Source of the DNA: Chitinophagaceae bacterium
GTDB lineage: Bacteria; Bacteroidota; Bacteroidia; Chitinophagales; Chitinophagaceae
Assembly (NCBI GenBank): GCA_019638595.1
Contig: JAHBTJ010000009.1
Coordinates: 186,001-250,000 of the forward strand
DNA length: 64,000 nucleotides
Reading direction: 5' to 3'
Each line of letters starts with the position of its first letter. Within the stretch, counting starts at the first letter, position 1. The notes under the pieces are model-generated. The model was not told the DNA's origin. It saw only the letters and a list, made by a program, of their open reading frames with translations, and did not search any database. This document shows, piece by piece, positions 2,404 to 28,759 of this stretch. A program made the translations under genes and the position numbers.

Positions 2404-2856
2404 ATGCTTGCTAAAGACCTATTCTCTGACAATTATAAGCATCGATGGCCGCTACAAAAGGATTTCCCTATAAATAACGATACGCATGACCGCACTGTAA
2501 AGTCTGTACTCCTTGGTGATATTGCAACTTCTCCGGATTATTTGATCGTCACGGGTTTTACCTCGCTTGCCAATCTCATTGAAATATTTGGAACGGCTAA
2601 TTATCAAAATTTTTTAAAGCTGAGGGTAGTGCTTGGCTTTGAACCGGAAATAATCAATCGGAAAAAATGGCCAACTTACAATCTAGTCACTGAGGTTAAG
2701 AACTACTGGCTTCGCCAGGGTATATCAATAATACTAGGTGGTGCAGTGCTGAACTTAATAGAAAGAATCAATAGCAATCAATTTGAATTTCGTCTTTTGG
2801 ACAAACTCCATGCAAGGATTTATGTAGGCCGGGATTGTTCATATTTTATTTTGTAA
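2404..2856 (+). pseudogene. Truncated phospholipase-D-like nuclease/helicase N-terminal domain
   Basis: The 150-residue product resembles the N-terminal PLD-like domain found in front of superfamily-2 helicases and in stand-alone PLD nucleases. It has a strand-rich core (YLIVTGFTSLANLIEIF, LRVVLGFEPE) and ends in KLHARIYVG, the position of the HxK catalytic motif. Directly after this motif the reading frame runs into the convergent neighbour at 2839 and stops, so the Asp/Asn-containing rest of the motif and any helicase are missing. I read it as a gene cut by a deletion near 2835. Such proteins are common in restriction and defence loci. The remnant suggests an earlier defence gene here. Confidence 0.55.
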
Positions 2857-3840
2857 GAAGGCATTGTATACTTTTTGTGCGGTCTCCCGGCATCGTCTGT
2901 CATTGGTGTTCATCAGGTCGGTATACACGAGCAGGGGAGGTACTGTTTTTAGGTCTGTGTCATCTTTTCGCCAGAACTTTTGAAATACCTTTATATTTCC
3001 CGCCGGGTCTGGTATCAACCGATAGTTCTTGAGTAATTCGTTTCTTGTTTCAGTAGTATAGAGCGTTAGTTCTTCCGGTTGCAGGTAATTGGTCAGCAAA
3101 TCCCCTGCAGGTTCTCCTCCCCATAGCGTTTTATCCGGAGGGAGGGGAAGTTGTTTCCAGCGAAGGAAATCATCCTGATGCAGAAACCGGAAAGTACCGA
3201 TACGCAAGGTTGGTTTCAGCTTTTCTTCGTAGGCAGTCATCCACCTGCCAAGCAGTTCCTTTTTATTGTCAAGCCGGTATTCATTTTTCGTGACTGCCAG
3301 CAGGAAGCCATCTTGCTGGAGACCGGTTATAATCTTGTGAATGTTCCCTACCGTGGTTCCAGTGTGGTCTGCAATGACCTGGTAGGTTTGATGGATCCAG
3401 GTTTCATCTCTCAGGAATTCAAACACGACCTTCAATCCTGTTTTTGTAAAGGCCCTGTTGCCCGTCTTTTTTTCAATGGCAATAGGTTTATGGGTTTCTA
3501 CCAGGAGCATGTTCCCATTATGCTTTAGAAATATATTCCCGTTGGCTTCGAGGTAAGCTACACCGTGCATTCTTAGCTCTTCTTTGATTTTAGGAAACAG
3601 GTGGGTGGCTACCATCATGAATGGCTGGTATTTCTGGTTCAGCTCAAAGATCTGGTCGAGTTGATGGGCTCGTAATTCATTTTTTATTTCAATGTAATAT
3701 TTGGTAGGTTTGTTATCAATGGTAAGCAGGATCTCGCCATCAATATCTTTCTGAGGAGCAGTCCCCATCCATTGACCTGTTATTGGAAGATCTTTTGGAA
3801 GGTTATCCAGTGCTAAATGTATGATTTCCAATTCTGTCAT
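2839..3840 (-). CDS. AbiEi-like (type IV toxin-antitoxin antitoxin-type) regulator
   Basis: The start at 3840 (MTELEIIHLAL) is preferred to the upstream frame-opening Met at 3900. The N-terminal third has a nuclease-fold-like pattern, DGEILLTID then YYIEIKNEL. A winged-helix segment follows (about residues 140-200, TYQVIADHTGTTVGNIHKIITGL). The C-terminal domain ends with LLVYTDLMNTNDRRCRETAQ, a signature of Bacteroidota proteins annotated as AbiEi-family antitoxins. No AbiEii-type nucleotidyltransferase toxin is adjacent, so it may be an orphan antitoxin or a stand-alone regulator. Its 3' end overlaps the truncated PLD gene by 18 bases. Confidence 0.55.
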   Translation of the reverse strand: MTELEIIHLALDNLPKDLPITGQWMGTAPQKDIDGEILLTIDNKPTKYYIEIKNELRAHQLDQIFELNQKYQPFMMVATHLFPKIKEELRMHGVAYLEANGNIFLKHNGNMLLVETHKPIAIEKKTGNRAFTKTGLKVVFEFLRDETWIHQTYQVIADHTGTTVGNIHKIITGLQQDGFLLAVTKNEYRLDNKKELLGRWMTAYEEKLKPTLRIGTFRFLHQDDFLRWKQLPLPPDKTLWGGEPAGDLLTNYLQPEELTLYTTETRNELLKNYRLIPDPAGNIKVFQKFWRKDDTDLKTVPPLLVYTDLMNTNDRRCRETAQKVYNAFLQNKI

Positions 3841-4323
3841 TTTTCCATTATTTTCATTTTTCCGGAAACGTAAAAATAGTAAAATTGGAAACAACAGCAA
3901 ACTTTAATCTTCGATTTCCCCTTTTAGGTTAATTTTTTAGCAAAAATTGAAGTTTTGGTATGTTGACTGAAACAACAGGACCGCGATGATCAATCAGATA
4001 AGTTATTATTAACACCAGGCTTTGCAAAAATACCTGCTATCAAAAGGTGTACCTGAGAAACAAATTAAAACGGAGCCTTACTCGGCGGAAGGGAAAAAAG
4101 GGCTGTAAGCTTTTCCTGGATAGATTTCGCCCAACCGGTCAGATGATAGCAAGTCTCTTGAATCGCTGTTTTTCAGTCATCTGCCGAATCCTCTAAAAAG
4201 CGAATCGTAAGGTTTACTCCTCTTAACTTTAAATCTGTAGAAATTTCTAACACTCAGATAGCGCAATGGCTTGAACGAATTCAGCAGAAATACCCGCAGT
4301 TTTAAACAATTGAGCAATGCTGA
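3841..4323. other. 483-base gene-free stretch
   Basis: I see no complete gene. A plus-strand frame ending near 4304 reads NTQIAQWLERIQQKYPQF before its stop and has coding character, but it is interrupted by upstream stops and I cannot assign it to a family. It is probably a decayed gene end. The first 60 bases are AT-rich and would hold the promoter of the AbiEi-like gene. Confidence 0.35.
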
Positions 4324-9837: not shown

Positions 9838-9874
9838 TTTCTGTCATTGAATTGTGAACCTGAAAATGTGTGGT

Positions 9875-11857
9875 ATGGCAATAAGAACGAATGAAAATGA
9901 GATCGGGTTAAAGAAGATCATGGACATGACCCGGCTGATCAGTGTAGCCGTATTATTGTTGCACTTTTACGATAGTTGTTATGTATTCTTCCGGGAGCAG
10001 GGATGGACACATGCCATCAGTAATAAGATACTGGATAATATTCACCGGACAGGTTTATTTGATAGCTTCCATAAGGCGAAATTTTTAGCGCTGCTTTTCC
10101 TGGCGCTTTCGCTGCTGGGCGTAAAAGCAAAGATGGGGGAGGAATTTAATTATAGAATGGCATTGGCGTATTTACTGGCTGGCATTTCGCTCTATTTTAC
10201 CAGTGGCTTACTGTTCCTGCTAACGGCAGCGAGTACTGTCATTGCAGTATCGTATATGATAGTAACGAGCATAGGGTTTATTTTCTTTTTAACGGGTGGC
10301 ACTTTGCTTGCCCGCATCATTAAAAAAAAGCTCAGCGGCGACGTATTTAATACCGTTAATGAAACCTTTCCGCAAGAAGAAAGGAAGCTGGAAAATAAAT
10401 ACTCCGTTAATATTCCTACAAGATACCGTTTGAAGAACCAGGAGCGGGCAGGCTGGATCAATATCATCAATGGATTTAGAGGGGGTGTTTTGTTGATGGG
10501 ATTAAGTGGAAGTGGTAAAACGCTGATCGCAAAAGAGATGCTGAAACAACAGATCGCCAAAGGCTATGCGCAGTTTATCCATGACTTCAAATATCCCGAT
10601 TTAACTAAGGTTGCTTATAATCATTTCCTGCGCAATAAACACCGGTACAAGGTAGCGCCGTCTTTTCACATCCTGAACTTTGAGGATGTACAGGACAGAT
10701 GCAATCCATTGCTGCCAAAATCCATTCGTTCGCTGACCGATGCGGCTTCCGCTTCGCGTGCAATCCTGTTAGGTTTAAACCAGCAGTGGATAGACCAACA
10801 AGGGGACTTTTGGGTAGAGAGCAGTATCAATTTTACAACCGCCCTGATTTGGTTTTTACGAGTGTACCAGGACGGGAAATATTGTACACTGCCGCACGTA
10901 ATAGAACTGGCGCAAACACCGTTGGATAAGCTCTTTACAATACTACTGGCTGAACCCACATTGGAAGTGCTGGTAACACCTTTTGTCCGGGCTTACCAGG
11001 AAGATGCCGGCAAGCAGCTTATTGGGCAGATTTCAGGCGCAGCGATCAGCCTGGGAACGCTTGCCAGCGAAAAGCTGTATTACGTGCTTTCCGGTGATGA
11101 TTTTACAATGGATATTAACGATCCCCAAAAGCCTAAGATCGTTTGCATTGCCAATAACCCGCAGGTATCGAATGTATATAGCGCGGTAATTTCTTTATAC
11201 CTCAATACCCTGCAAAAACTCCTGAAAGAGCAGGACGAGCAACCCTGCGGGATTCTGCTGGAAGAATTTGCTAATATCTCCTGGCATAATGCCGACAAAT
11301 TTTTATCGGTTTGCAGAAGTTATTTAGTTAATGTGACTTTAGTAATACAGGATGCCAGCCAGCTTATTTTGCATTACGGAGAACGACAGGCGAACGTGAT
11401 CCTGTCTATGGTAGGCAATATTATCTCCGGTCAGGTCACCGGTGATAGCGCTAAACAACTTTCAGAACGCTTTGGGAAGATCATGCAGGATCGTCAAAGC
11501 CTTACCATCAACAGCAGTGATACATCATTCAATAAATCCAGGCAACTGGATTATGCTATCCCGCAATCAACAATAGCTTCTTTGTCGGCGGGGGAAGTTG
11601 TGGGAGTAGTAGCGGATAATCCCGATCAGCGCATTCCGCAAAAGATGATTCATGCCCAGGTGCAGCATGATCTTAAAGCATTGGAGAAAGAGGAAGGAAA
11701 ATATAAGCCATTGCCAGAAAAGCAGGTAACAGAAAAGGTTATCCGGGAAACGTTTCTTCGTGTTAAAAGAGAGGTAAAAGCGATTGTGGAAGATGAAGTG
11801 GATAGGATTATGAATACACCGGGGATGGGAGGAACGGTTGTAAGAAAAAAGGATTAA
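9875..11857 (+). CDS. mobC: MobC-type conjugative coupling ATPase (TraG/VirD4-like)
   Basis: The protein carries several N-terminal membrane segments (within about residues 20-160), then the domain entry YSVNIPTRYRL, a Walker A motif GLSGSGKT and downstream ATPase motifs including ILLEEFANIS (Walker B-like). It ends in a charged tail. This is the layout of Bacteroidota MobC/TraG coupling proteins, which bring relaxase-bound DNA to a type IV secretion channel. No relaxase (MobB) or secretion genes lie in the window, so the element is at best mobilizable in trans and is probably decayed. GTG 9854 and ATG 9866 are alternative starts. I chose 9875 because homologs begin shortly before the GLKKIMDMTRLIS segment. 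Its last 300 bases recur at 14104-14365. Confidence 0.85.
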   Translation: MAIRTNENEIGLKKIMDMTRLISVAVLLLHFYDSCYVFFREQGWTHAISNKILDNIHRTGLFDSFHKAKFLALLFLALSLLGVKAKMGEEFNYRMALAYLLAGISLYFTSGLLFLLTAASTVIAVSYMIVTSIGFIFFLTGGTLLARIIKKKLSGDVFNTVNETFPQEERKLENKYSVNIPTRYRLKNQERAGWINIINGFRGGVLLMGLSGSGKTLIAKEMLKQQIAKGYAQFIHDFKYPDLTKVAYNHFLRNKHRYKVAPSFHILNFEDVQDRCNPLLPKSIRSLTDAASASRAILLGLNQQWIDQQGDFWVESSINFTTALIWFLRVYQDGKYCTLPHVIELAQTPLDKLFTILLAEPTLEVLVTPFVRAYQEDAGKQLIGQISGAAISLGTLASEKLYYVLSGDDFTMDINDPQKPKIVCIANNPQVSNVYSAVISLYLNTLQKLLKEQDEQPCGILLEEFANISWHNADKFLSVCRSYLVNVTLVIQDASQLILHYGERQANVILSMVGNIISGQVTGDSAKQLSERFGKIMQDRQSLTINSSDTSFNKSRQLDYAIPQSTIASLSAGEVVGVVADNPDQRIPQKMIHAQVQHDLKALEKEEGKYKPLPEKQVTEKVIRETFLRVKREVKAIVEDEVDRIMNTPGMGGTVVRKKD

Positions 11858-12985: not shown

Positions 12986-14029
12986 ATGGAACAATATCGC
13001 AAGTCCGACCAATACTACATTGATGAATACGATAAGAAAACAATACAGGAGCTGAAAGAATTGGAAAAGTTGATGGACGAAGCCGAAAAACAATGTCAGT
13101 CAAATTCGGATAACCTTCCTGATTACCTTTCCAAACAGATAAAATATATTGATACCGGAGTTTCTTATGCCCGTAACAAAAATCAATCCGTGCGGGAAAA
13201 TATAGCGGAAGACGAAAGGAAAGATCAGTTGCTTCAAAAAAATCCCATTCCAGAAAACGTTAGATGTAATACCTGTAACGCATTGATGGATTTTAAATCC
13301 CACGATTTCATTGGGCATAGAAATGGACCGTTGATTTATTTTTTTTCCTGCCCTAACAATCATTTACCGATGAAGACAGTATATGCTAACGGAAACCCCT
13401 ACCTGATACCCAAAGCTACTTGTACCTATTGCGGAGGCGAATTGGTCTGCAAAACAAGAAAAACCAAAATGAGGCTTATCCTGACTGATAAATGCCAACA
13501 ATGTGGTAAGACAGATTCTTTCAAGATAAATATTGCCCCGAAAAAGATACTACCAATAGACGAAAACGATCGAAAGAAATATTGTACGGATTTTATTGGA
13601 CGTAGAACCTCTTATGAGGACTTAAAGTCTCTGGCAGCTTTGGGGGAGTTATTCGATAATCAACAGGAGAAAGACACTTATAATTTCAGCCAGTTGAAAA
13701 TGTTGAACATTGTGCAACTGGAAGAAACTCTGGTAGAGAAACTAAAGGAAGAAGGGCTCCAAAAATTTCAATTTGAAAAGCCCAAAGATTCAAACAGGTT
13801 CTTAACTGTAAATTTTTCTGCAGTGGACAACAAGAATCGTGAGAAAACAAAAAGTATCAAAGCATTGAAAAAAATAATTGAAACCCAATTATTCCATTCC
13901 AATTGGCGGTTAATGTCTCCCGGAATATCTTATAACCTCGCCTTTCTAAGTGGGCAATTAAAAGGATATTCCCTGGAGGAAGACTTGCTGAAAATTGCAA
14001 GAGAAATCCATGAAAAGACCTTGAAGTGA
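12986..14029 (+). CDS. Zinc-knuckle protein of unknown function, 347 aa
   Basis: An N-terminal helical, charged segment (residues 1-85, KELEKLMDEAEKQC) precedes several zinc-ribbon-like cysteine pairs, CNTC (about 94-97), CTYCGG (about 146-151) and CQQCG (about 168-172), with further Cys and His between (SCPNNH). The C-terminal half is helical and charged. Several Cys pairs suggest one or two zinc-binding modules for DNA or RNA contact. It lies between a terminator and the broken second copy of the MobC tail. I do not recognise the family. It could be a mobilization accessory or a defence accessory. Confidence 0.6.
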   Translation: MEQYRKSDQYYIDEYDKKTIQELKELEKLMDEAEKQCQSNSDNLPDYLSKQIKYIDTGVSYARNKNQSVRENIAEDERKDQLLQKNPIPENVRCNTCNALMDFKSHDFIGHRNGPLIYFFSCPNNHLPMKTVYANGNPYLIPKATCTYCGGELVCKTRKTKMRLILTDKCQQCGKTDSFKINIAPKKILPIDENDRKKYCTDFIGRRTSYEDLKSLAALGELFDNQQEKDTYNFSQLKMLNIVQLEETLVEKLKEEGLQKFQFEKPKDSNRFLTVNFSAVDNKNREKTKSIKALKKIIETQLFHSNWRLMSPGISYNLAFLSGQLKGYSLEEDLLKIAREIHEKTLK

Positions 14030-14103: not shown

Positions 14104-14365
14104 GATTATGCCATCCCGTAGTCCACTATTGTTTCCTCCGGGGAATTTGTTGGCGTGGTAGCCGACAACCTCGATCAACGTATTCTGAAAAAGATGTTCC
14201 ATGCCCAAGTGCAGCATTATCTGAAGGCATTATCTGAAAAAGCGAGAAGATAAAAGGTGATATGGGAAACGTTTCTTCGTGTTAAAAGAGAGGCAAAAGC
14301 AATTGTGGAGGATGAAGTTGATAGGGTTGTAAATACGCCGGGTATGAGTAAAATAGTGCTAAGTA
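14104..14365 (+). pseudogene. Degenerate second copy of the MobC 3' end
   Basis: The stretch aligns with 11549-11849 of the coupling-ATPase gene: GATTATGCCATCCCG here against GATTATGCTATCCCG there. The 29 bases starting GGGAAACGTTTCTTCG are identical in both. Internal stops and indels (a TAG after AIP, a TAA after KARR) make it non-functional. It was produced by a duplication or by recombination with a related element, and brackets 11.9-14.1 kb between two MobC tails. Confidence 0.8.
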
Positions 14366-14431
14366 GAAATAATTTAATCGCTAAATTTTTTAGTATTTTC
14401 GCAAATAGTTAATGCGAGAAAAAACTTAAGA

Positions 14432-17400
14432 ATGGGAAAAATTGGAAGAAATGATGCATGTCATTGTGGGAGCGGAAAGAAATACAAGCATTGTTGCCTA
14501 AATAAAGAAAACGTCGCTATTCATCCCTTTTCATCATATGCTTCTGACGAGTTACTAAAAACTCTAGCTTTGCTGCTAGTTCAATTGCGTAACCATGGAA
14601 AAAATATTCGTTTGGAAAGAACCATTTTAGAAACTCTCCGTCATTTTACTAATAGCACACAAAAATTAAATATAGTTGACTTAAGAAAAGATCTATTCAA
14701 ATATTGTCAGCCCCATCCCTATGAGGATCCTCCTGAAGAATTTTTTACAGAACTTTTATACTGGGATACTGGTAATCATCTTGTGTTTCCAGGTATAGCT
14801 AGTAATGGTGTTGAGATTGTACAACAACTGCTTAATACAGTACGATTACGAGCAAATTTTCCACAACTTTTTTTAGAAGAAATAGAACCTGCAATTAACT
14901 TTCTTCTTAGTATACATAACGAGATTGCTCTATCACTTGGATATACATATAGAATGTTTGAAGATGAACATCATGAACAATTGTTTATACCCGAAGATTC
15001 CATTATTAATAAATATAAAGATCTTTTCTCTATTAAAGTTGACGACATAGCGGGCTTGCTAAAACATTTCAACCTCAGCCAAGAGATGTTCAATAATTTC
15101 GTTTTTGATAACGATAAAAAGAAATTAGAATTTGAGGATAGTGATGATAACCCTTTATTCCAAAGACCTTTTATATTGTCAGGCGATGAATATATATTGG
15201 TAAACCCTACCGCCGAACTTTTTTGTCTGAACGATCATATTCTTGCAATGGCAGAAAAACACGGGTGCCTTGAAACTTTGCTCGAATCATACCGCGACAT
15301 CGGAATGATTGAGTTGTATCCAGTTTTTTCAGGAATGCACTGGAAAAGAGCCGACTTTACATTTCCTATAGACGAGTCAATACCAAAATCTTGCTTAAGG
15401 ACCGAATTACTTTTTAAGATAGATGTTGATAGATTGGCTTACGTTGTCGTTATGACAGAAGTTGCCACCAAGGATAGAGATATTAGAGAAAGCATTAAGA
15501 AATATTCATACGAAGTGAAAACACGGGTCGAGAAAATATGTGGGTTGATTAAGGAAAAGTTTCAAGGACATCAGATATTATTTCTTCATGTTATGCACAA
15601 ATCCAGAATTCTTTCAAAGGTTGGATTGCAATTGAATTTATTGTTGAACGTAGATTTCAGTTTGTTTTTTTCTTATGAGGAACTATTTCTTCTTCCCAAA
15701 AAATGGGATTTTGACAGTCTTACATTGTGGAAGTATGGAAAATACCTTCACGAATATGAGAACAATCACAAATTTGCACCGTACAATACACATTTCTCAA
15801 AAATGAAATGGTACCTGGACCATGAAGAATCATTTTATCATCCTGATAAAGAAGCTCCTTCGGTTGTTTTTTTTGAGTTTGAAATTGAGAGTGAGGTACG
15901 GAGGTCTGCGATAAGTATACTTGATAAAAAAGCTATTCCTTTTTTGAACAACGGGAAGATTATTTTTATACCATGTTATCGAAAAGAAGAATATTATCCA
16001 GTTTATATTTCTCAAGACATTAATCAGGGCCTTATTGCCAGTTGTCTTGAGGAATATGACTGCCCAATTTGGTGCGTATCTTCTCGGCGAAGTGATTTCC
16101 ATGGAGATGTTTATATTAATGGTATTCTTTACTGGTTACATGAAATGTTTCCAGTTATAAGGAAATGGGTAAATCAGCTCGGAAAAAATCCAGTCTTGAT
16201 GCGTGTGACTTTTGACAAGCATCTGTATGAAAAAGACGAAGTCTTAACTAATCCTGCTGACCTTGATGTTGAATTCCGCTATAAAATTAATGCTAATGAT
16301 AGATTAATTGACTTATACATTCCCGCCTCTATTCGTGCTCATCTGTATTCTTCTGGGAATCGTGGCGAATATCTTCTTATGAACTTGGTACTCGAAGCAA
16401 TTGGAGGGCTGCAGCAAGAATTACATGTTGAGCAGCCATTGACGGATTCTTTCAAAGAGGATATTTTCAGAAAGGTTATGCCTAACGGGATGAAGAAGTT
16501 TGTCAATGTTCTATCGGATTATCGAGATCTCACACTGTCTAATATTGATATTCCGAAGCCGCGAATAATTCCCAAGGCTGATGTCTCTTGCATTTTGCAG
16601 AAACAAATAAACGAACTAAGCCAATTAACCCACATTCCTAAAAAAATTTCAGAACCTACAAATCAAACTGACCTTTTAAATCAATTAGTGTTTTATCATT
16701 ATCAGAAAGTAAAGCTTTTAGTAAATGAATATGATGGTTTTCAATTATTGATCTTCCTTATGAGGCGACAGGAAGCATTGCTTCACAATAGCACTTTTCG
16801 TCAAGTAAATTATCCAGTTAAACAGGCTTGCTATGGTCACTATTACGATGTATTCAAAGAATTCGCTGAATCTGCAAGAGATACCAATATTGCTAACCTT
16901 GCACTTAGAATTCTTATTGAATGGGTAGCCTGCTGGATGCCTACCGGAATAAAGTTACCTTCCGATGACGGAACGGATTTTTTACTCGCACACGTATCTG
17001 AGGTGATGAATTATGGTTCATTATCTGACGAGATAAAATACGGGCTGCGGGAAGTAGAACTGAGACTTCTTCCATCCGGGAGACTGGGGATAGATCAGAA
17101 TAAAAATAAAGGCTCTTACGATATTATCTTCGACAAAATATTTGGCGCAGAATATGAAAGTTATGAGGCGAAATTCCAAGAATATTATGAGCGAAATATT
17201 CGACCAACGCCGAATGAGTCCTATGGGAAGTATCTTGATAGAGTTGAAAATATATTTAAAACTGAATGGGGAATTGGAATCCATAATATTTTCATTCTTA
17301 CACACGCTCTTGTCCGTAAGCTATTCGATAGAGGACAGTCTGTGACAATGTTGTCGAAAACGGAATTGTACGATCTACTTTCTGAATCGAAATTTACCGT

Positions 17401-18169
17401 AGGTGAAATAGAAGCCTGGACAAGCATATTACGATTTCTTAAAAGGGATGATGTACTTAAAACTCCAGTCGGGTTTCAAAAGGAGGAAGTATATCCGTGG
17501 AGGTACAATCGCCGTATTTCCTATCTTATTAAGCCTTTAATTTTTATTAAACAGAATAATGAAGAATACATTTTGCTGAGTGCACGGCATTTATACAAAG
17601 CCGCTGAGAATTTAGTTTCTATCTTTCATAGCGGCAGTTTACCATTAGATAAAGAAAATAAAGCAATACGCACACTCTTAGCTGAAAGGAATGCAATTAA
17701 AGGAAAAGAGTTCCGCGACGAAATACAAAATTGGCTAACTGAGAATACAAGCCTATATGTATACTCACAAGAAATTACTATTAAAGAAAAAGGATTTTTT
17801 ATCGCTGATTCTGACAAAGGAGATATTGATATACTTGCTATCGATCATGGCATCAAGGTTATTTACTCTATCGAATGCAAGAATACGAATCAGTCGAAAG
17901 TTGCGTACGAATTTCATCTCGAAATCATAGATTATTTAGGGAAATTAGGAAAGAACGGTTTGATACAAAAGCATATCAATCGAGACCAATGGTTACGTGA
18001 GAATAGTGAGCAAGTATTTAGAAAGTTAAATGTAAGCGGGGACTATCGATTAGTTTCATTGGTCGTCTCAAAATATGTATTACCTACTGCTTTTCTCCGA
18101 AATGTTGAAATCCCAATTATCTCTATCCATGACCTCAAAAAAAATGGATTGTCCGTTTCAGTCGGCTAG
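14432..18169 (+). CDS. Giant SEC-C protein with C-terminal PD-(D/E)xK-like motif, paralog 1 (1245 aa)
   Basis: The protein opens with a SEC-C zinc motif (C10, C12, C21, C22; GRNDACHCGSGKKYKHCC). About 1050 residues without a recognised domain follow. The C terminus (about 1085-1190) reads GKEFRDEIQNWL (E1093, E1097), then GDIDILAID and SIECKNTN. D1133, E1148 and K1150 are spaced as in PD-(D/E)xK restriction-like nucleases. The SEC-C motif usually tethers a protein to ribosomes, SecB or nucleic acid. There is no membrane segment or signal peptide, so it is cytoplasmic. A paralog of the same length starts 830 bases downstream, and shared blocks include EDPP-FTE near residue 105 and the PWRYNRR region near residue 1030. 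I infer a defence or DNA/RNA-processing role. The family has no function that I recognise. Confidence 0.75.
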   Translation: MGKIGRNDACHCGSGKKYKHCCLNKENVAIHPFSSYASDELLKTLALLLVQLRNHGKNIRLERTILETLRHFTNSTQKLNIVDLRKDLFKYCQPHPYEDPPEEFFTELLYWDTGNHLVFPGIASNGVEIVQQLLNTVRLRANFPQLFLEEIEPAINFLLSIHNEIALSLGYTYRMFEDEHHEQLFIPEDSIINKYKDLFSIKVDDIAGLLKHFNLSQEMFNNFVFDNDKKKLEFEDSDDNPLFQRPFILSGDEYILVNPTAELFCLNDHILAMAEKHGCLETLLESYRDIGMIELYPVFSGMHWKRADFTFPIDESIPKSCLRTELLFKIDVDRLAYVVVMTEVATKDRDIRESIKKYSYEVKTRVEKICGLIKEKFQGHQILFLHVMHKSRILSKVGLQLNLLLNVDFSLFFSYEELFLLPKKWDFDSLTLWKYGKYLHEYENNHKFAPYNTHFSKMKWYLDHEESFYHPDKEAPSVVFFEFEIESEVRRSAISILDKKAIPFLNNGKIIFIPCYRKEEYYPVYISQDINQGLIASCLEEYDCPIWCVSSRRSDFHGDVYINGILYWLHEMFPVIRKWVNQLGKNPVLMRVTFDKHLYEKDEVLTNPADLDVEFRYKINANDRLIDLYIPASIRAHLYSSGNRGEYLLMNLVLEAIGGLQQELHVEQPLTDSFKEDIFRKVMPNGMKKFVNVLSDYRDLTLSNIDIPKPRIIPKADVSCILQKQINELSQLTHIPKKISEPTNQTDLLNQLVFYHYQKVKLLVNEYDGFQLLIFLMRRQEALLHNSTFRQVNYPVKQACYGHYYDVFKEFAESARDTNIANLALRILIEWVACWMPTGIKLPSDDGTDFLLAHVSEVMNYGSLSDEIKYGLREVELRLLPSGRLGIDQNKNKGSYDIIFDKIFGAEYESYEAKFQEYYERNIRPTPNESYGKYLDRVENIFKTEWGIGIHNIFILTHALVRKLFDRGQSVTMLSKTELYDLLSESKFTVGEIEAWTSILRFLKRDDVLKTPVGFQKEEVYPWRYNRRISYLIKPLIFIKQNNEEYILLSARHLYKAAENLVSIFHSGSLPLDKENKAIRTLLAERNAIKGKEFRDEIQNWLTENTSLYVYSQEITIKEKGFFIADSDKGDIDILAIDHGIKVIYSIECKNTNQSKVAYEFHLEIIDYLGKLGKNGLIQKHINRDQWLRENSEQVFRKLNVSGDYRLVSLVVSKYVLPTAFLRNVEIPIISIHDLKKNGLSVSVG

Positions 18170-18264
18170 CATTGTCGTAGAAATTAGCCTGTAGATACAC
18201 TTCAAACTACAAGTTTCTAAATTCTAAAATTTTCCACTACAGTCGAGGCAAAAGTCAATTTCGA

Positions 18265-18749
18265 CTACTTTTTTAGCAATTCGTCTAGACCATTGATGAT
18301 GCCTGTAGCCATTTCATCTGACAACTCTTCCATAGGTTGATAAATCAAGTTCAAAGTCGCTAATTGCTGCGGAGAAGCAATTAAAGCTCCACGCCCCTTG
18401 CCAAATACTTCAATGAGTTCACCTTTATACGGCTTGTCAAAGCTGTCGGAATACAAAGTCCTGAAAAAAGAAAGGTCACAAATCAAATTGTCTAATTCAA
18501 CCCAAGCATGCCCTACCCATTCCTGATAAACACTATCTTTTGCCGTTAAGAGGCTAAAATCTTGCTTAAAATATAGTCGCCAGCAAATATTAAATTGCCG
18601 CATACTAGCCTCGTTTCAATCTGATACTTATCTTTTAAGATGGCATAAAGTAATGCCGACATGGGTAGACAAAGCATAGGTCTGTGAGGGATATTTAGTA
18701 AGATATCACTAACAACCTCTTCCAATATCTTTTGTTTTTTAGCAAGCAT
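18265..18749 (-). pseudogene. Frameshifted transglutaminase-like (Cys-His-Asp) protein gene
   Basis: Two overlapping minus frames together form one protein of about 160 residues. The first (18749-18546) carries HRPMLCLPMSALLYAIL. The second (18603-18265) carries VGHAWVELDNLICDLSFF. Cys, His and Asp stand in the order and context of transglutaminase-like or papain-fold enzymes. The frame change lies inside 18546-18603, in a T/A-rich run near TATATTTTAAGC. One missing or extra base separates the frames, so it is a recent mutation, a sequencing error or programmed slippage. It lies between, and antisense to, the two giant SEC-C genes. Confidence 0.55.
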
Positions 18750-18999
18750 AGTTTATTAAAAATACAGAATGACAAGGGATTTAGTCTTTTTATTCAGTTA
18801 TTTAGGGCGAAGAAACGCTTTCAAGTTGTCAATATAGTTTTAACTTCTTTGAAAAAAGAGAAAGCGGAATATTAACACCTAAAAGTGCTACCAAATCAGC
18901 CAAATTCTATATTTCTTGCAAATTCAAGGCAGACAAATCAATAAGAACTAAAATTTTTAAAATTAACTGCCGAATTTCGTTGACCAGAATTTCAGGACG

Positions 19000-21900
19000 A
19001 TGAGTAAAATTGGTAGAAATAGCCCTTGCCCTTGTGGCAGCGGGAAAAAATTTAAACACTGCTGCCTTAAAAATGAAGTACCAACGGAAATAACCGATGC
19101 TACATTCGAGCAAATGTTTAATTGGTCTGAGCAGAGAAATTTTAGGATTTCCGATAAAACCTTTCTCAGTTATATAAAAAATCATGAGTCGGGCCACATT
19201 TTAGATGTACTTATTGAGCTTCAGCTAACGCCAGAAAATCATGGCAAGAATTTGCGAATTGAGCAGATAGCAAAACTCATCATAAAAAACCTTAATTCGG
19301 GAGAAAAGAAAGATACTGAGCTTCTTGTCGATATTATTAAAAAAGGATTTCCCAAATCGCATTTAGAAGATCCTCCGGAAGGGTTATTTACCGAGAATGT
19401 AATATTCCATGGAGGTAACTATATTGTAATGCCTGGAATTTCAACAAAAAGCGTTGACATATTTGCTACCATGAGCAAGGCTGTTTTTTTGAGTAACACG
19501 GAATTGAGTGAAGAGTTCAAAGAAGTATTACGACAAGGAATTACCCTTATGCTTGAATTGGGCAAGCTTATCTTTAATGCATGTAAACTGAAAGCTAACG
19601 ATTTCGTTGAGAGCATATCGGATAGTTTATACTTACCTCAAGTAATCTATAAAAACGGGCTTGACAAGGAAATGGTATTGGAGGTATGTGGGCGGAATGG
19701 TATAAATGAGGAAGTTTTGAAATTTTTTATTGTTGATGCCAATGATCCGGGATTTGAAAGTGATGATTATGAAGACAATCCTCTTTTGTTCCGCCCATTG
19801 GTGCTCTTTGAAAACAAGTATTACTTCGCTTTAATTTCTTCACAAATGCTGGCGGTCAATGAGTACATCGTTGAATCTGCGCTAAAGCACAAGAAAGAGC
19901 TTGAGGTTTTAATCGCATATCATCAGGTTTTGTTTAATGACGTGCTGATGAGCTGCAGGAAGTTGGGATGGTCACCCAAAAATATTGGCATAGTGAGAAA
20001 CCCGGAAAACCTCCCTATAAAACAAGAAGTTCTTCAATTTGATGACTATTATCTTTGTTATCTTGTTTATATATATCCACAAACATTCGGACCAAGAGTT
20101 GATCCTGCGCCCGATTCAATGGCTTATCCTGAATACCTTGAAACTTCCATAAAGGAACTACATAAAAGAGAGGATCTTAGAGGATTCAATTTCCTTGTAC
20201 TATACGTCACTGGCGAGATTGGGCGGGATGCCTATTATTCCTTCCCTAGGCCGCAATTTACAGAGCAAGTAATTTATTTTTCGGCATATGAATTTATCCA
20301 CCTTGCAAACGCCGAACAGTGGAAGCCCCTTGATCTTTTTAATTATGCAAAAGCTTACGGACGATTTGCGGCGAAGACCAAAATACTTGACACAGCATCC
20401 ATCGATACATACGCTATATTCAAATTAAAGGGCGAAAGTTTTTACTTAAATGACAGCACTCAATTCAGTATGTTAAGTGTAGTTCCCGGTTCCGGTGCGG
20501 ATCTGTATCGCTCTGCAAAGCAAAAGAGGAATATACACGGAGCAATTACCCTTCATAATTTAGAATCGGCTTATGAGTCGGTCGAACGTTTTAGAGACTA
20601 TGAGAGTGTATACTTACCTATTCACTCGTTTGATCGGACTAGGTTCTTAGTCGAATGTTCTCCTACACCTATATGGCTGGTTGGTGCCAATGAACAATCG
20701 GAGAACAGTCAATTTTTTGAGATGACATTAGAGGCAGTGGCTGCATGGCTTGAAAAATTAAGCAGAAGACTATATACCCACTTCGAAACAGCAGGCCTTG
20801 AGAGTTTAGAAATACAAATCTCTATTGATCCATTTTTATTTGGTCAGCATTTGTATCAAGATCTCTATGATCCTAATCTTTCGGACGAATTTGAATTTGT
20901 CTACAAAGGCAGAATAATCGAATTTTTCATTCCACCGGGCATTTTCCGGCATTTAACGGGATCCAACAATAGAGGCGAAAGAATGATTATGTTCTCAATA
21001 GTGGAGGCTTGCATGGAAATTCCTGGCTTTGACTTATCCTATACTGAAGCCCAAGCCTTGCTTGATGAAATTATTCCTCTTGGGCCTGGGAAAATGATAA
21101 TGATACTGGATACAAATCGTGATTTCCGACTGGACAATCGATGGCTTAAAAGAACTCATCTAATTTCGGAGGCTGTTATTAACATGGTTCAAGATGATCT
21201 TGTAAGGATCGTAAACTACCCGTTTGTGCTACCTGCCAGCATAAAATTGTCTTCTGAGAAAGTCAAATTTTGCAATTACGTTGTGTCTGCTTTGATAAAA
21301 TTTATTAGGCAAAAAGCTGACCAGTTTGATCAAAGAAGACTGATTGCAAGATTGCTTGAGCTAAATGAGAGTCTTATTCACAGGCGCGAAATTAGCAAAA
21401 TAAAACTCCCAGCTCAATTGCACTGTAACAACGATAAGGAGGCAGTGATAAAAAAATTATTGCAAAATGAAAATGCGATGGTTATTACTTCATTGGCTTG
21501 TAAATCTCTTATTGAGCTATTTGTAGCATGTCCTACTAAAGGGACTCATGACTTAGGATATGTTGATATGGATTATTTGCTTGCAGTGATGAATGAGGTG
21601 CTTGCATTTGGAATGGTAAGCGATTGCATTCATTTTAAGTTGGACGATCCAATAATCGGCTTGCTTCCGTCGGGAAGAATACAGATAGGGAAATCTTTTT
21701 TTGATACTGTTTTAAAGCCATTCTCTGAAGCTAAATCTAGTGCAGACATTGACTATTATATAGAGACATTCGATGACGTTTTAGATAAACTGAATATACC
21801 TGATTTGAGCGAAATAAATGAATATTGGGAACCTGTGAATAAAGCTTTTAAGGCTGATTTCGGCTTTGATTATACAGCTACTATTCAGGTGTGTGGTTTA

Positions 21901-22758
21901 CTTATTAAGTATGCAATTGAAAATAATGCATCCGTTTTATTCATTGAAAGGAATATGCTTATAGGAAAAATGAGGGCCGAGGCATTCTTTAAGGAGGAAT
22001 ACTTGAAAGTACTTGAATGGCTTATTTTGGATCAAAGGAATGATTTTCTAAAAGCACCAGCTGGATATAAGAATGAGGACGTGTTTCCGTGGAAATATAA
22101 CCGGGAGTTCAGTATAAGGCGCAGACCGCTATTAAAATTAGTAGCGGATGAGAAAGATTACTTTATTTACGGAATGCGAAACGTTGAAGATGCAAGTAAA
22201 GCAATTCATGGATTATTGTTGAACGGTAGGTTAAAGTATGTAGATACGACTGTATCAGCCATTTTGGGAACCTTCAGAGAAGCAAGAGGTAAGGAGTTTA
22301 GAAACGAAGTTGTTAAATGGTTAAAGAAACACACCAACTTTAAAGTATGGGATTACGAAGTAAAAATGAAGCCAAACGGACACTTAAAATGTGAGACGGA
22401 TCTGGGAGACATTGATGTGCTGGCTTTTGATGAGTCCGATCAAAAGGTTTATAGTATAGAATGCAAGAGAACTCATCAGGCAAGGAACATGCATGAAATG
22501 AAGGTCGAACTAGACGCCTATTTGGGAAGAGAAGGGCAAAAGAGAAATATTCAACGTCATCTTGATAGGCACAATTGGATTATAGCCAATAAAAAAGTTT
22601 TAGGTGATTTCATCGGTACAGGGAGCGGGATAAAGGTATCGTCACTGATCTTGACTTCGGAAGTTTTACCGATAAAATTTATTGCCGGAGACAAGTTGCC
22701 ACTGCCATTTGTTTTTTGGCCAGAACTTAAAAGAGCCGGTATCCCAATTTTGCCATGA
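19000..22758 (+). CDS. Giant SEC-C protein with C-terminal PD-(D/E)xK-like motif, paralog 2 (1252 aa)
   Basis: The start is directly before the SEC-C motif (C10, C12, C21, C22 in GRNSPCPCGSGKKFKHCC). Blocks shared with the upstream paralog run through the protein: EDPPEGLFTE, YEDNPLLFRPLVL, GNNRGER-like and PSGR segments, and FPWKYNRE. At the C terminus GKEFRNEVVKWL is followed by GDIDVLAFD and SIECKRT, giving D1139, E1154 and K1156 as nuclease-like acidic and basic residues. Both copies keep all SEC-C cysteines and the putative catalytic triad, so both are probably active. The divergence between the copies is high, so duplication is old or they were acquired as a pair. The product is cytoplasmic. 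Confidence 0.75.
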   Translation: MSKIGRNSPCPCGSGKKFKHCCLKNEVPTEITDATFEQMFNWSEQRNFRISDKTFLSYIKNHESGHILDVLIELQLTPENHGKNLRIEQIAKLIIKNLNSGEKKDTELLVDIIKKGFPKSHLEDPPEGLFTENVIFHGGNYIVMPGISTKSVDIFATMSKAVFLSNTELSEEFKEVLRQGITLMLELGKLIFNACKLKANDFVESISDSLYLPQVIYKNGLDKEMVLEVCGRNGINEEVLKFFIVDANDPGFESDDYEDNPLLFRPLVLFENKYYFALISSQMLAVNEYIVESALKHKKELEVLIAYHQVLFNDVLMSCRKLGWSPKNIGIVRNPENLPIKQEVLQFDDYYLCYLVYIYPQTFGPRVDPAPDSMAYPEYLETSIKELHKREDLRGFNFLVLYVTGEIGRDAYYSFPRPQFTEQVIYFSAYEFIHLANAEQWKPLDLFNYAKAYGRFAAKTKILDTASIDTYAIFKLKGESFYLNDSTQFSMLSVVPGSGADLYRSAKQKRNIHGAITLHNLESAYESVERFRDYESVYLPIHSFDRTRFLVECSPTPIWLVGANEQSENSQFFEMTLEAVAAWLEKLSRRLYTHFETAGLESLEIQISIDPFLFGQHLYQDLYDPNLSDEFEFVYKGRIIEFFIPPGIFRHLTGSNNRGERMIMFSIVEACMEIPGFDLSYTEAQALLDEIIPLGPGKMIMILDTNRDFRLDNRWLKRTHLISEAVINMVQDDLVRIVNYPFVLPASIKLSSEKVKFCNYVVSALIKFIRQKADQFDQRRLIARLLELNESLIHRREISKIKLPAQLHCNNDKEAVIKKLLQNENAMVITSLACKSLIELFVACPTKGTHDLGYVDMDYLLAVMNEVLAFGMVSDCIHFKLDDPIIGLLPSGRIQIGKSFFDTVLKPFSEAKSSADIDYYIETFDDVLDKLNIPDLSEINEYWEPVNKAFKADFGFDYTATIQVCGLLIKYAIENNASVLFIERNMLIGKMRAEAFFKEEYLKVLEWLILDQRNDFLKAPAGYKNEDVFPWKYNREFSIRRRPLLKLVADEKDYFIYGMRNVEDASKAIHGLLLNGRLKYVDTTVSAILGTFREARGKEFRNEVVKWLKKHTNFKVWDYEVKMKPNGHLKCETDLGDIDVLAFDESDQKVYSIECKRTHQARNMHEMKVELDAYLGREGQKRNIQRHLDRHNWIIANKKVLGDFIGTGSGIKVSSLILTSEVLPIKFIAGDKLPLPFVFWPELKRAGIPILP

Positions 22759-23807: not shown

Positions 23808-25100
23808 TTATTTGCGAAAAGTTATGTTTCTACTCTGTAACCCGAAAGCTACCCATACTGCACCAAAAGGGCAAATAGCTTTTTCTTTCGCTTTAAGCCA
23901 AGGGGCTGTCTTGCACTGATCATCTGTAGGCATTTTAGGTTCCGAATAAAAGCAATGATCGTATAAAGCGCAATCTTTTTTTCCGAACAAAAATAAATCG
24001 TGAAGCTGTTTAAATGCGGATAAAAATACCGTGTGTATACTATCTTGTTTACCACGCATTACGGGAGGTGCCGCAAACCAACGATTACCAATAGAATTTA
24101 TTACCTCAGGAACACCAAGCAATTTATAAACCTCATAAAACTTACCTTCGAATGGCCTACTATTTCTGTATAATTCAAGCATAAATTGAGGCTCTGATCG
24201 CCTTAATTTATTGCCTGCTTCTAATACCTGTGTCAACCATTCTCTTTCATTATTAAAGATTTCATGTCCGAAAATTTGGCTCAACTGATGACGCAGCCCC
24301 TCTTTTGAACTACTATTACACCATTTACTACTGATATAATGTAATCCAAATTTGTAAATCTCTTCGGTAGTAATGTTGGTAGTTTCCCATGAATCAATTT
24401 CCAATATCAGTTCAAGAAATGTCTGACCAGGGGACGGCGTGCAAATTGAAAGGTCACACAGGGCAAAAATAAATTCTTCTTTATCCCGGAGTTTTTCAGA
24501 AAGAAAGTTTGCGAAAATGATTGCAGCCTTATAGGGAAGATCAGGATGTTCATTTTCGCCAAAATATTTCCTTTGAATAAGGTGGGTCATAGATTCGACA
24601 ATTGCGATTCCACCAAACCAATATGTAGCGGGCTTTCCTTCATCATTTAGAAGATTTAATTGAATGAATTTTATTCCTGAGTTTGCTTCTACTCTAAATT
24701 TGTCGTGTGCAGGTGTAACCCTATAGCTTTTTATTCTTAAAGGATCGCTGATCTGTTGATTATTCGAAGTTGCCGGACCTATATCGCCGGATTGGGCGAA
24801 ATAGTAATTTAGATTGGAATTACTTTGTTCAAATTGTTCGTTTTCCACTGGGGGCAATTCAATGTCTCCGGTAGATTTCTGATAATGAGCGATTATTTGC
24901 CTGATTCGATCGTATGCATTCCAACCGGAGCTGTACCCAAATTCAGAAGTTACATCCTGCAGAAAGTGAAAGTACTCATGAAAAAATACAGATTGAACTT
25001 GAACAGGCAATTTATCTAGTGGCGCAATGTTATAAGATGTTGCCAGTTTAATTTTATAGTATGAAGGTGAGTAAAAACCACGTTGCGTATGGAAATTCAT
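23808..25100 (-). CDS. HExxH metallopeptidase-like protein 2, 430 aa
   Basis: FFHEYFHFLQD (about residues 39-49) is a HExxH zinc motif followed by a long soluble body. IVESMTHLIQ (about 190) could supply a third ligand. The C-terminal third has a cysteine cluster (CALYDHC, DQCKTAPWLKAKEKAICPFG) that could bind a second metal or Fe-S. There is no signal peptide. The ATG overlaps the stop of the preceding gene by 4 bases (ATGA), so the two proteins are probably translated together at fixed ratio. I cannot name the family. Confidence 0.6.
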   Translation of the reverse strand: MNFHTQRGFYSPSYYKIKLATSYNIAPLDKLPVQVQSVFFHEYFHFLQDVTSEFGYSSGWNAYDRIRQIIAHYQKSTGDIELPPVENEQFEQSNSNLNYYFAQSGDIGPATSNNQQISDPLRIKSYRVTPAHDKFRVEANSGIKFIQLNLLNDEGKPATYWFGGIAIVESMTHLIQRKYFGENEHPDLPYKAAIIFANFLSEKLRDKEEFIFALCDLSICTPSPGQTFLELILEIDSWETTNITTEEIYKFGLHYISSKWCNSSSKEGLRHQLSQIFGHEIFNNEREWLTQVLEAGNKLRRSEPQFMLELYRNSRPFEGKFYEVYKLLGVPEVINSIGNRWFAAPPVMRGKQDSIHTVFLSAFKQLHDLFLFGKKDCALYDHCFYSEPKMPTDDQCKTAPWLKAKEKAICPFGAVWVAFGLQSRNITFRK

Positions 25101-26032
25101 AAAGTCTTTTTTTCATTTTGAAGCTGTTCATAGATGTGGAAATACAACTCCTTGTTTGAGGTTGCCGTTTCGGGTTCTTCAAAATTTTTATTAAACGCCA
25201 TATCCCAAAGCCTATAGCCAATATATGCAAACGTCCAAATTGGGCTATTAGGTTCGGGATCAAGATAAAGTAATACTTCATGTAATCTATTATCCGTGTC
25301 AGGATGCGTTCCATTGCTGGATACGGTGTACTTACTGAAGAAAAAATAGCTAAAAACGGCGCAAATAATACCTAATGACGTGCCTTGTAACGTGGTTGAA
25401 GTACATCCCAATAACATTAATTGTAAAGCTCTTTCGTCGGCTTCGATTTCTGCATTGATATTAAAGTCTGGGTCGTCGAAATCGTGCTTCGTATTATGTT
25501 CGCATTCTATGTGTGCGAATTCATGGCAGAGTATGTAATTAATTGCGGCAAAGAATAGTTTGTTGACGATTTCTATCGTCATTTTTTCTTCATCGCCATA
25601 TAGCTCTGGATTGGGGAATTTTTCTTTATTCCACTCGGAATATTCATGAATTAGAGATTTAGCGTAGCGAAATAAATTCAGAATTTCGTTAATACTTTCA
25701 TCTGCGGCATCATCGGTTTTGCCATTTTTTACGTTAAAAGTTTCAGTATGCAGGGCATAGAGGCAGTAGCAAATACACCAAGTGTACGATAGAAAACTTT
25801 CGTGGATATGTATTGCAGAAAATTGTACATAAGGACTTTCTGCTCTCTTGTTTCCATAATGGTACATTAATCCAGGATAAAGATTTTTATTTTCTATTGC
25901 ATCGCGAGTAAGTTCTATGAATTCAGGGCAGGTATTTTCGAGTTTAAGTGGCAAGAGATCTTGAAGCACTCGGATTGGCTGTAATCCAATATGTGAGGGA
26001 TTGCTCTTGTCAATGACTTTTATAGCAGGCAT
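25097..26032 (-). CDS. HExxH metallopeptidase-like protein 1 (Lit/M48-like), 311 aa
   Basis: The motif CHEFAHIECEHN (about residues 170-181) followed after some 15 residues by EIEADERALQLM gives the gluzincin pattern HExxH...ExxxD. It resembles phage-exclusion Lit-type and M48-like peptidases. There is no membrane helix or leader, so it is cytoplasmic. It is the first gene of the three-gene operon. Lit-type proteases cleave a host translation factor on phage infection. That comparison is only by motif and context here. Confidence 0.6.
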   Translation of the reverse strand: MPAIKVIDKSNPSHIGLQPIRVLQDLLPLKLENTCPEFIELTRDAIENKNLYPGLMYHYGNKRAESPYVQFSAIHIHESFLSYTWCICYCLYALHTETFNVKNGKTDDAADESINEILNLFRYAKSLIHEYSEWNKEKFPNPELYGDEEKMTIEIVNKLFFAAINYILCHEFAHIECEHNTKHDFDDPDFNINAEIEADERALQLMLLGCTSTTLQGTSLGIICAVFSYFFFSKYTVSSNGTHPDTDNRLHEVLLYLDPEPNSPIWTFAYIGYRLWDMAFNKNFEEPETATSNKELYFHIYEQLQNEKKTL

Positions 26033-27126: not shown

Positions 27127-28373
27127 TTAAATATCGAATCGGGCAAAATCCACGGACTTGGTTCCTTCTATAACCTCCCGCAGACCTACCTTGTAGTAAT
27201 TTTCCGTTGTTGTTTCTTTTTCATGTCCCATCATTTTGGAGAGTACCGGGCGTTCTGCGCCAGAACGGATCCACATTTGTGCATTGGTATGGCGGCCGGT
27301 TTTATTAGAAAGCGGCCGTACTATTTTTGCTCGTTGGGCCAGCAGCTTCAGATTTCTGTTATACACCTGGATTTCTACAAACAGACTTTTTCTGAACAGG
27401 AATTCGCTTTCAGGATTTTTATCAGAATACTTTTCCAGTATAGTGGTGGCATATGGAAATTTATACAGCGGTATAATAGTAGGTTTACCGTTTTTATCTC
27501 TTTCACCGATGATATAATAACCGTACTCAATATCCCGGAATAATTGGATTTTCTTTAGTATCTGCAGGTCGTTGTAATAAAATCCTGTATATACCTGGAA
27601 TAAAAACAAGTTCCGGTCCCGTTCAAGACTTCTTTCTGTTTTATCAAATTCCAGCCGGCGCAGGGCTTGAACTTCTTCTATTTCTAAATGCTGTCCTTCT
27701 TTCCTTCTGGATATGGTTATAGCGATCTCATCAAAGTATTGTTCTACATCCTGGACATTGAGCAGGTGCTCCTTTTTTGCAGCGTAGGTCAGGACGACTT
27801 TGAATTTATCAAAGTAAGATTTGATGGTAGATGCTTCCAGTTTGCCTTTCCGCCCTTTTTGTTCGCTCAGATAATTGCGAATCCTTGCAATTATCGTTTC
27901 ATCTATATCACCGAAGCGGATTTTAGGTTCAAAATTATTGAGGTGCATCAGGAAGGCTTCGTATTTCTCCCAGGTGACAGGGTCGAGGTTTACATTCTCC
28001 GGTGGATAATCAATATAGTTGCGGAAATAATCATTTAAAATGGCCTTATCGCCTTTTCTTAAAATTTCGCGCTCAATAGTGTAAAAGGTGATGGGCTTTC
28101 CCTGGTTATAAAACCGCTTGATCAGCTCCGAAATTTTGGTTTTTATTTCAGCGATGCGGTTATTGATCTCAAAAGAGAAAGGGTGGGTATTTTTAACCCA
28201 GCACCCATCTTTTCCTGTCCACTGTTCCAACCTTACTTTCTGGGGCGTTTTTACAGGGTAATACCGGCTGGGCTGCGGATGCAGGTAGATCCGCGCAGGT
28301 GAATGGAATACATTCCTGTAACATTTACGGCATTGCGCCAGTTAATGATGGGTGTTACGACCGGTATGTTCAT
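27127..28373 (-). CDS. Tyrosine recombinase/integrase with a frameshift near its N terminus
   Basis: The body (28230 down to 27127) has a SAM-like core-binding domain and a catalytic domain ending SGAERPVLSKMMGHEKETTT then ENYY, which gives the His and nucleophile Tyr of the family. The usual Arg in TGLR is replaced (TGFYYNDL), and the usual HxxR is KTGRH, as in many Bacteroidota integrases. The N terminus MNIPVVTPIINWRNAVNVTG starts at 28373 in another frame and passes to LHPQPSRYYPVKTPQKVR by one missing or two extra bases near 28289-28295. The gene is therefore broken, slipped or mis-sequenced. It lies next to tRNA-Asn, its likely target. Confidence 0.75.
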
Positions 28374-28545: not shown

Positions 28546-28622
28546 TGGCTCCCCCTTCAGGACTTGAACCTGAGACCCTCTGATTAACAGTCAGATGCTC
28601 TAACCAACTGAGCTAAGGAGGA
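28546..28622 (-). tRNA. tRNA-Asn (anticodon GTT)
   Basis: On the minus strand the gene runs from TCCTCCTTAGCTC to GGGGGAGCCA. The 7-base acceptor stem pairs with one T-G wobble. The D arm, the anticodon stem CTGA/TCAG around the CTGTTAA loop, and the T arm with GTTCAAGTC are all present. The encoded CCA occupies 28546-28548. Its 3' end faces the island, and the word GCTCCCCC from its end recurs at 1786-1793. Confidence 0.95.
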
Positions 28623-28725
28623 ATATGTTTCCTGTTTTCAATCCTTCTTTATCTTCATCCGGCGTAAACCAATCCCGATATCGCGTTGCTCATCGGGACC
28701 TTGTTTTTCTAAAACTCCTGCGTCG

Positions 28726-28759
28726 TTTTGAAAAACTCCGGCTGAGCTAAGGAGGAATA
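28726..28759. repeat. Remnant of a second tRNA-Asn copy (5' end)
   Basis: CTGAGCTAAGGAGGAATA at 28742-28759 repeats 28608-28625 exactly (18 bases, the tRNA 5' end plus leader). It is preceded by CGTTTTGAAAAACTCC, which resembles the sequence flanking the intact tRNA on its other side. It looks like a tRNA copy with the body deleted. The rest of the 28623-28960 spacer shows no gene. Confidence 0.55.

Follow-up and report, generated by a model that had tools for sequence, protein, structure and literature searches.

What are two giant, similarly built genes that lie next to each other in a mobile island, and do their products work together? A first-pass annotation of the stretch analysed here (the window, 64,000 nucleotides) had described two same-direction open reading frames of 1245 and 1252 residues, A and B, and had proposed that they form an undescribed two-subunit defence or nucleic-acid-processing system, with the large middle of each chain acting as sensor. 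A check of coordinates and translations found both reading frames intact, with ATG starts and TAG/TGA stops. The cysteines of the N-terminal SEC-C motif (C10, C12, C21 and C22) were found in both chains, and the C-terminal residues were also exactly where they had been reported: D1133, E1148 and K1150 in A, with GKEFRDE at 1091, and D1139, E1154 and K1156 in B, with GKEFRNE at 1097. Both SEC-C matches exceed the Pfam cut-off of 20.4 bits (Table 1). The strong divergence described for the two proteins was likewise confirmed by an identity of 23-24%. The genes are separated by 830 bp containing an antisense ORF, for which no Pfam, NCBIfam or PADLOC match was obtained at E up to 1.

Table 1. Coordinates of A, B and neighbouring features in the window
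Feature	Position	Strand	Evidence or remark
AbiEi-type gene	2839-3900		
MobC, conjugal transfer	9854-11857	+	NCBIfam NF041326, E 4e-264, 877.9 bits (cut-off 900)
Relic of mobC 3' end, just upstream of A	14224-14378	+	155-nt, 77% copy of 11705-11859
Gene A, SEC-C Upx-like protein, 1245 aa	14432-18169	+	ORF; NCBIfam and PADLOC Upx and PDB 9wuf matches
SEC-C motif of A, residues 6-23	14447-14500	+	Pfam PF02810, 32.6 bits
PD-(D/E)xK-type signature of A, GDID to ECK, residues 1130-1150	17819-17881	+	Residue check, alignments
Antisense ORF between A and B, 112 aa	18265-18603	-	ORF list
Gene B, SEC-C Upx-like protein, 1252 aa	19000-22758	+	ORF; NCBIfam and PADLOC Upx and PDB 9wuf matches
SEC-C motif of B, residues 6-23	19015-19068	+	Pfam PF02810, 35.4 bits
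Possible degenerate nuclease-like lobe in middle of B, residues 267-430 (tentative)	19798-20289	+	Partly confident strand/helix order; non-significant Foldseek matches
PD-(D/E)xK-type signature of B, GDID to ECK, residues 1136-1156	22405-22467	+	Residue check, alignments; C-terminal model leads to 9wuf first
HEYFH zinc-protease-like protein, 430 aa	23808-25100	-	Overlaps Lit homologue by 4 bp
Lit homologue (Lit-like phage-exclusion protease)	25097-26032	-	NCBIfam/PADLOC, under NCBIfam cut-off; HEFAH at residue 170
Tyrosine integrase beside tRNA-Asn	27127-28230	-	Pfam PF13102 and PF00589
tRNA-Asn	28546-28622		

Profile searches connected both proteins with Upx (NCBIfam NF042954, PADLOC PDLC02221, PDB 9wuf). 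The NCBIfam model matched A with E 9.9e-43 (145.6 bits) and B with E 1.4e-53 (181.5 bits), and the PADLOC model with E 1.1e-34 and 1.3e-41, respectively. As the NCBIfam scores are far under the equivalog cut-off of 1900 bits, A and B were classed as distant relatives or a variant and not as Upx equivalogs. Sequence searches of the PDB led to chain 9wuf_A (E 2.7e-21 for A, 3.1e-20 for B), with the C-terminal part aligned. This chain carries the label 'Restriction endonuclease' in an entry titled 'Cryo-EM structure of Upx', and a 457-residue piece of it scored 820 bits against the Upx model. When a profile made from A, B and five relatives was compared with 9wuf, the match (E 2.5e-70) took in 40-1239 of the 1268 profile positions and 35-1250 of the 1272 residues in the chain. 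A Salmonella contig in public plasmid records, matching the Upx model with 1684 bits at positions 428-1271, showed about 25% identity to B where matched.

Since A and B show homology to Upx throughout the chain, and Upx is already represented by models in NCBIfam and PADLOC and by a cryo-EM structure, the two proteins cannot be called undescribed. The full-chain match also places the presumed sensor region in a known family. The first-pass annotation had counted a confident match of this region to a housekeeping family as evidence against its reading; a confident match was indeed obtained, but to a defence family. Upx was reportedly first described in 2020, in a screen for defence genes. PMC12629846 deals with Upx in Pseudomonas islands, and in the partly accessible literature our search on SEC-C Upx or the mechanism of Upx retrieved no paper.

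The signature residues D, D, E and K were invariant in an alignment of seven sequences and kept in 20 of the 22 rows of a wider alignment, the exceptions being the relative in genome G501, a gene cut by a contig end, and a row that holds just the N-terminal part of a split gene. This conservation indicates that the predicted nuclease signature of A, B and their relatives is, at the level of sequence, more than a chance resemblance. A pattern search of A, B and their relatives retrieved it in 21 of 24 rows; the other three were L129 (cut by a contig end), L133 (GEID...ECK) and a separate short ORF of L131.

For structural comparison B was modelled in two parts, with four further rows supplied for each. 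The C-terminal model (224 residues) had a low mean pLDDT of 58.6; block values of 71-90 were reached at residues 71-130 and 161-190. It contained a helix, strands bearing GDID and IECK, and then helices, which is the order expected for a PD-(D/E)xK fold. Foldseek placed 9wuf first for this low-pLDDT model (probability 1.00, E 1.9e-3, TM 0.44), with no match reaching E 0.001; a viral cap-snatching endonuclease was among the next, non-significant matches, and no nuclease other than Upx matched significantly. For the N-terminal model (620 residues, mean pLDDT 53.4, likewise low) the top match was again 9wuf, with E 9.5e-12, TM 0.39 and an rmsd of 13.2. Non-significant matches of this model included the N.BspD6I nickase, McrBC, Cap4 and bunya-/arenavirus endonucleases, as well as unrelated proteins, e.g. 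zinc transporters. The model gives no more than a hint of a second, degenerate nuclease-like lobe at about residues 267-430 of B.

Among relatives of the window's class or nearer, the SEC-C pattern was present in all 15 long proteins, A and B included, and it was also detected in the acidobacterial relative L018, in its N-terminal piece. The pattern search did not find it in L111, L112, L115, L130 (same phylum, other class) and L133, nor did the L116 translation, read by eye, contain SEC-C; L131, L132 and the C-terminal piece of L018 are uninformative, being truncated. A scan of genome contigs was dominated by SEC-C: among the best 80 of 512 stretches only L018 matched most of the chain, and the other stretches listed matched chiefly at SEC-C. 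The acidobacterial SEC-C Upx relative is split into two overlapping frames (L018:9992-13812), and the genes that follow it resemble a CBASS locus by eye.

The genomic context agreed with the first-pass annotation in two respects, the mobile island (MobC, the mobC relic and the integrase beside tRNA-Asn) and the defence-like neighbours (the Lit homologue and the AbiEi-type gene). The name of the MobC model suggests a Bacteroidota host. The outer boundaries of the island were not found, and the tRNA 3' end did not recur within the window. The 5' end of tRNA-Asn, by contrast, is present as an 18-nt repeat (28608-28625 and 28742-28759, 134 bp apart), perhaps an integration scar. Upstream of A, the frame at 12986-14029 (+) encodes a 347-aa protein with zinc-ribbon-like cysteine pairs and no family match above cut-off. 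The Lit homologue is the only one in the window's genome. The adjoining HEYFH protein had no Pfam match above cut-off; when it was aligned with 11 relatives, H41, E42 and H45 were kept in 11 of the 12 rows (the remaining row is truncated), and E169 and the cysteines 377, 383, 396 and 410 in all 12. Relatives of this protein occurred in 14 of 384 genomes of the family, and they possibly represent an undescribed metalloprotease family of defence islands.

In genome G377 the Upx relative adjoins MobC and relaxase genes and lies near RadC, DUF932 and SSB genes; DUF932- and SSB-like genes are also found near the copies G622b and G653. Caspase-domain genes are located near the relatives in G377 and G622, and an Mrr-type gene, with a relative of its own in G648, lies near the G622 relative. 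Two caspase-domain genes that adjoin Upx relatives in two genomes (L117:6539-7390 and L120:11504-12382) are 37% identical. Further relatives reside on plasmids of Deinococcus, Bosea and Sinorhizobium; on the Deinococcus plasmid the relative is preceded by a 1281-aa protein that looks NACHT-type ATPase-like by eye (L115:508-4353).

A HEYxH gene, near B in the window, directly adjoins the Upx relative in G335 and G393, which belong to one genus. In G319 a HEYxH gene is located between RadC and DUF932 genes that are 84% and 92% identical to the flanks in G377. These flanks hence enclose, in G377, a Upx relative together with a caspase-domain gene and, in G319, a HEYxH gene (loci L120 and L154), as expected of a hotspot for defence cargo. 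As a candidate partner of Upx the HEYxH gene was rejected: none of the 9 other HEYxH loci read, taken from 12 further matching genomes (G070, G473 and G493 were left out), contained a Upx relative within the sequence read. A Fisher test of co-occurrence, based on two non-identical samples, gave p 0.005 with G341, where a broken Upx fragment lies about 1 Mb away, and 0.056 without it, and is suggestive only.

The ancestry of A and B bears directly on whether they form one system. A tree was calculated from 20 rows, leaving out the truncated G501, the fragments of G195 and G341, and L131-L133. A clustered with G622b and G547 (100/100), and B with G1005 (92/99), the latter below the star level of the program. 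Forcing A and B to be sisters cost 192 log units (p-AU 2.7e-86), so that, with the model applied, a recent tandem or local duplication is rejected. Twelve of the 20 rows, A among them, were flagged by the program for unusual letter make-up, and five for long branches. Relatives were present in 7 of 396 genomes of the order, 11 of 394 of the family and 3 of 395 of the phylum; these samples overlap and yielded 16 different positive genomes, with fragments in G195 and G341 and a cut-off gene in G501. Fourteen of the 16 have a single copy, and two copies were found in the window's genome and in G622. Both of these hold an A-clade copy, a weak hint that pairing may be linked with A. Phage records searched with A gave no match; the search of viral contigs returned 26 stretches with two relatives (L111 and L112), and a second scan the contig of L111 only.

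Could A and B nevertheless be the subunits of one heteromeric system, diverged Upx-like chains that assemble and act together? They are adjacent, on the same strand, similar in length and intact in all motifs, and G622 likewise combines an A-clade copy with another one. However, the search for the pair, proposed by the first-pass annotation, showed adjacency in one of the 16 positive genomes, that of the window. G622 carries its copies on two contigs (C29 and C170), in each case well away from the contig ends, and the second copy clusters with G377 and not with B. In addition, the one-contig genome G547 has a lone A-type copy with an open ORF of 1254 aa. With non-sister chains, mostly single relatives and a gap holding an antisense ORF, the two-subunit claim was not borne out, and we regard such an assembly as improbable. 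The Bacteroidota-type promoter pattern matched 9 times in the window (4.5 expected), with none between 7623 and 28767, and is therefore uninformative on co-transcription of A and B. What stands of the original interpretation is the defence context, the C-terminal PD-(D/E)xK-type signature and the large remaining region. There is also little probability that SEC-C Upx proteins are mechanistically distinct, in the sense that the knuckle docks on a phage-perturbed host machine (e.g. ribosome or translocase), the degenerate middle lobe senses, and A and B hetero-assemble or split recognition, possibly with the Lit and HEYxH metalloprotease-like neighbours.

Other readings concern the target. That the putative nucleases are directed at rival plasmids or mobile elements and not chiefly at phages would fit the mobile-island location and the plasmid-borne relatives, but the matched family is named antiphage. 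Moreover, defence genes generally travel on mobile elements, so the location of A and B does not discriminate between phage and plasmid targets; we consider the anti-plasmid reading rather unlikely. A housekeeping or core-genome function might be suggested by the SEC-C motifs of SecA and YchJ-type proteins. It is extremely improbable in view of the mobile location and the sparse relatives, with none in the same-genus genomes listed (one in the order sample, eight in the family sample).

Altogether, A and B are probably independent single-gene defence nucleases of a SEC-C branch of the Upx superfamily, carried as cargo of one mobile island. Antiphage activity may be expected by analogy with the family's name; as to sensing, tethering and substrate, we infer the following. 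The N-terminal and middle region of roughly 1000 residues would sense an invader-specific ligand or structure, while the SEC-C knuckle may tether the protein to a partner, be it protein, ribosome or nucleic acid. Sensing would then license DNA cleavage by the metal-dependent PD-(D/E)xK nuclease at the C terminus, directed at the invader's DNA or, as suicide, at that of the host. Two diverged copies would broaden the range of invaders recognised.

These results add a diverged branch, marked by a constant extra zinc motif, to an antiphage family that is structurally solved and little described. This branch is missed by current family cut-offs, its scores reaching about one tenth of that set by NCBIfam. 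Having two diverged copies in one island also offers a natural way to compare what is recognised by the large non-nuclease part.

Among known systems, DUF234 (Pfam PF03008) matched weakly across the nuclease signature, with E 0.027 (15.3 bits) for A and 0.15 (12.9 bits) for B at a cut-off of 22.5 bits, which is a hint at most. With the SEC-C motif proteins SecA and YchJ, A and B have the zinc motif alone in common, the rest of the chain being unmatched in the PDB searches. The resemblance to Upx comprises length, colinear homology over nearly the full chain and, in the alignment, the GDxD...ExK signature, which is present in 9wuf too; like Upx, the relatives of A and B are encoded by a single gene in most genomes. 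Unlike Upx, with which identity is about 23-25% over the aligned parts and whose equivalog cut-off they miss, A and B possess an N-terminal SEC-C motif, undetected in 9wuf as covered from residue 35 onward, and they occur as diverged copies side by side. A and B thus constitute a SEC-C-bearing, diverged branch of Upx, present as two independent copies in one island.
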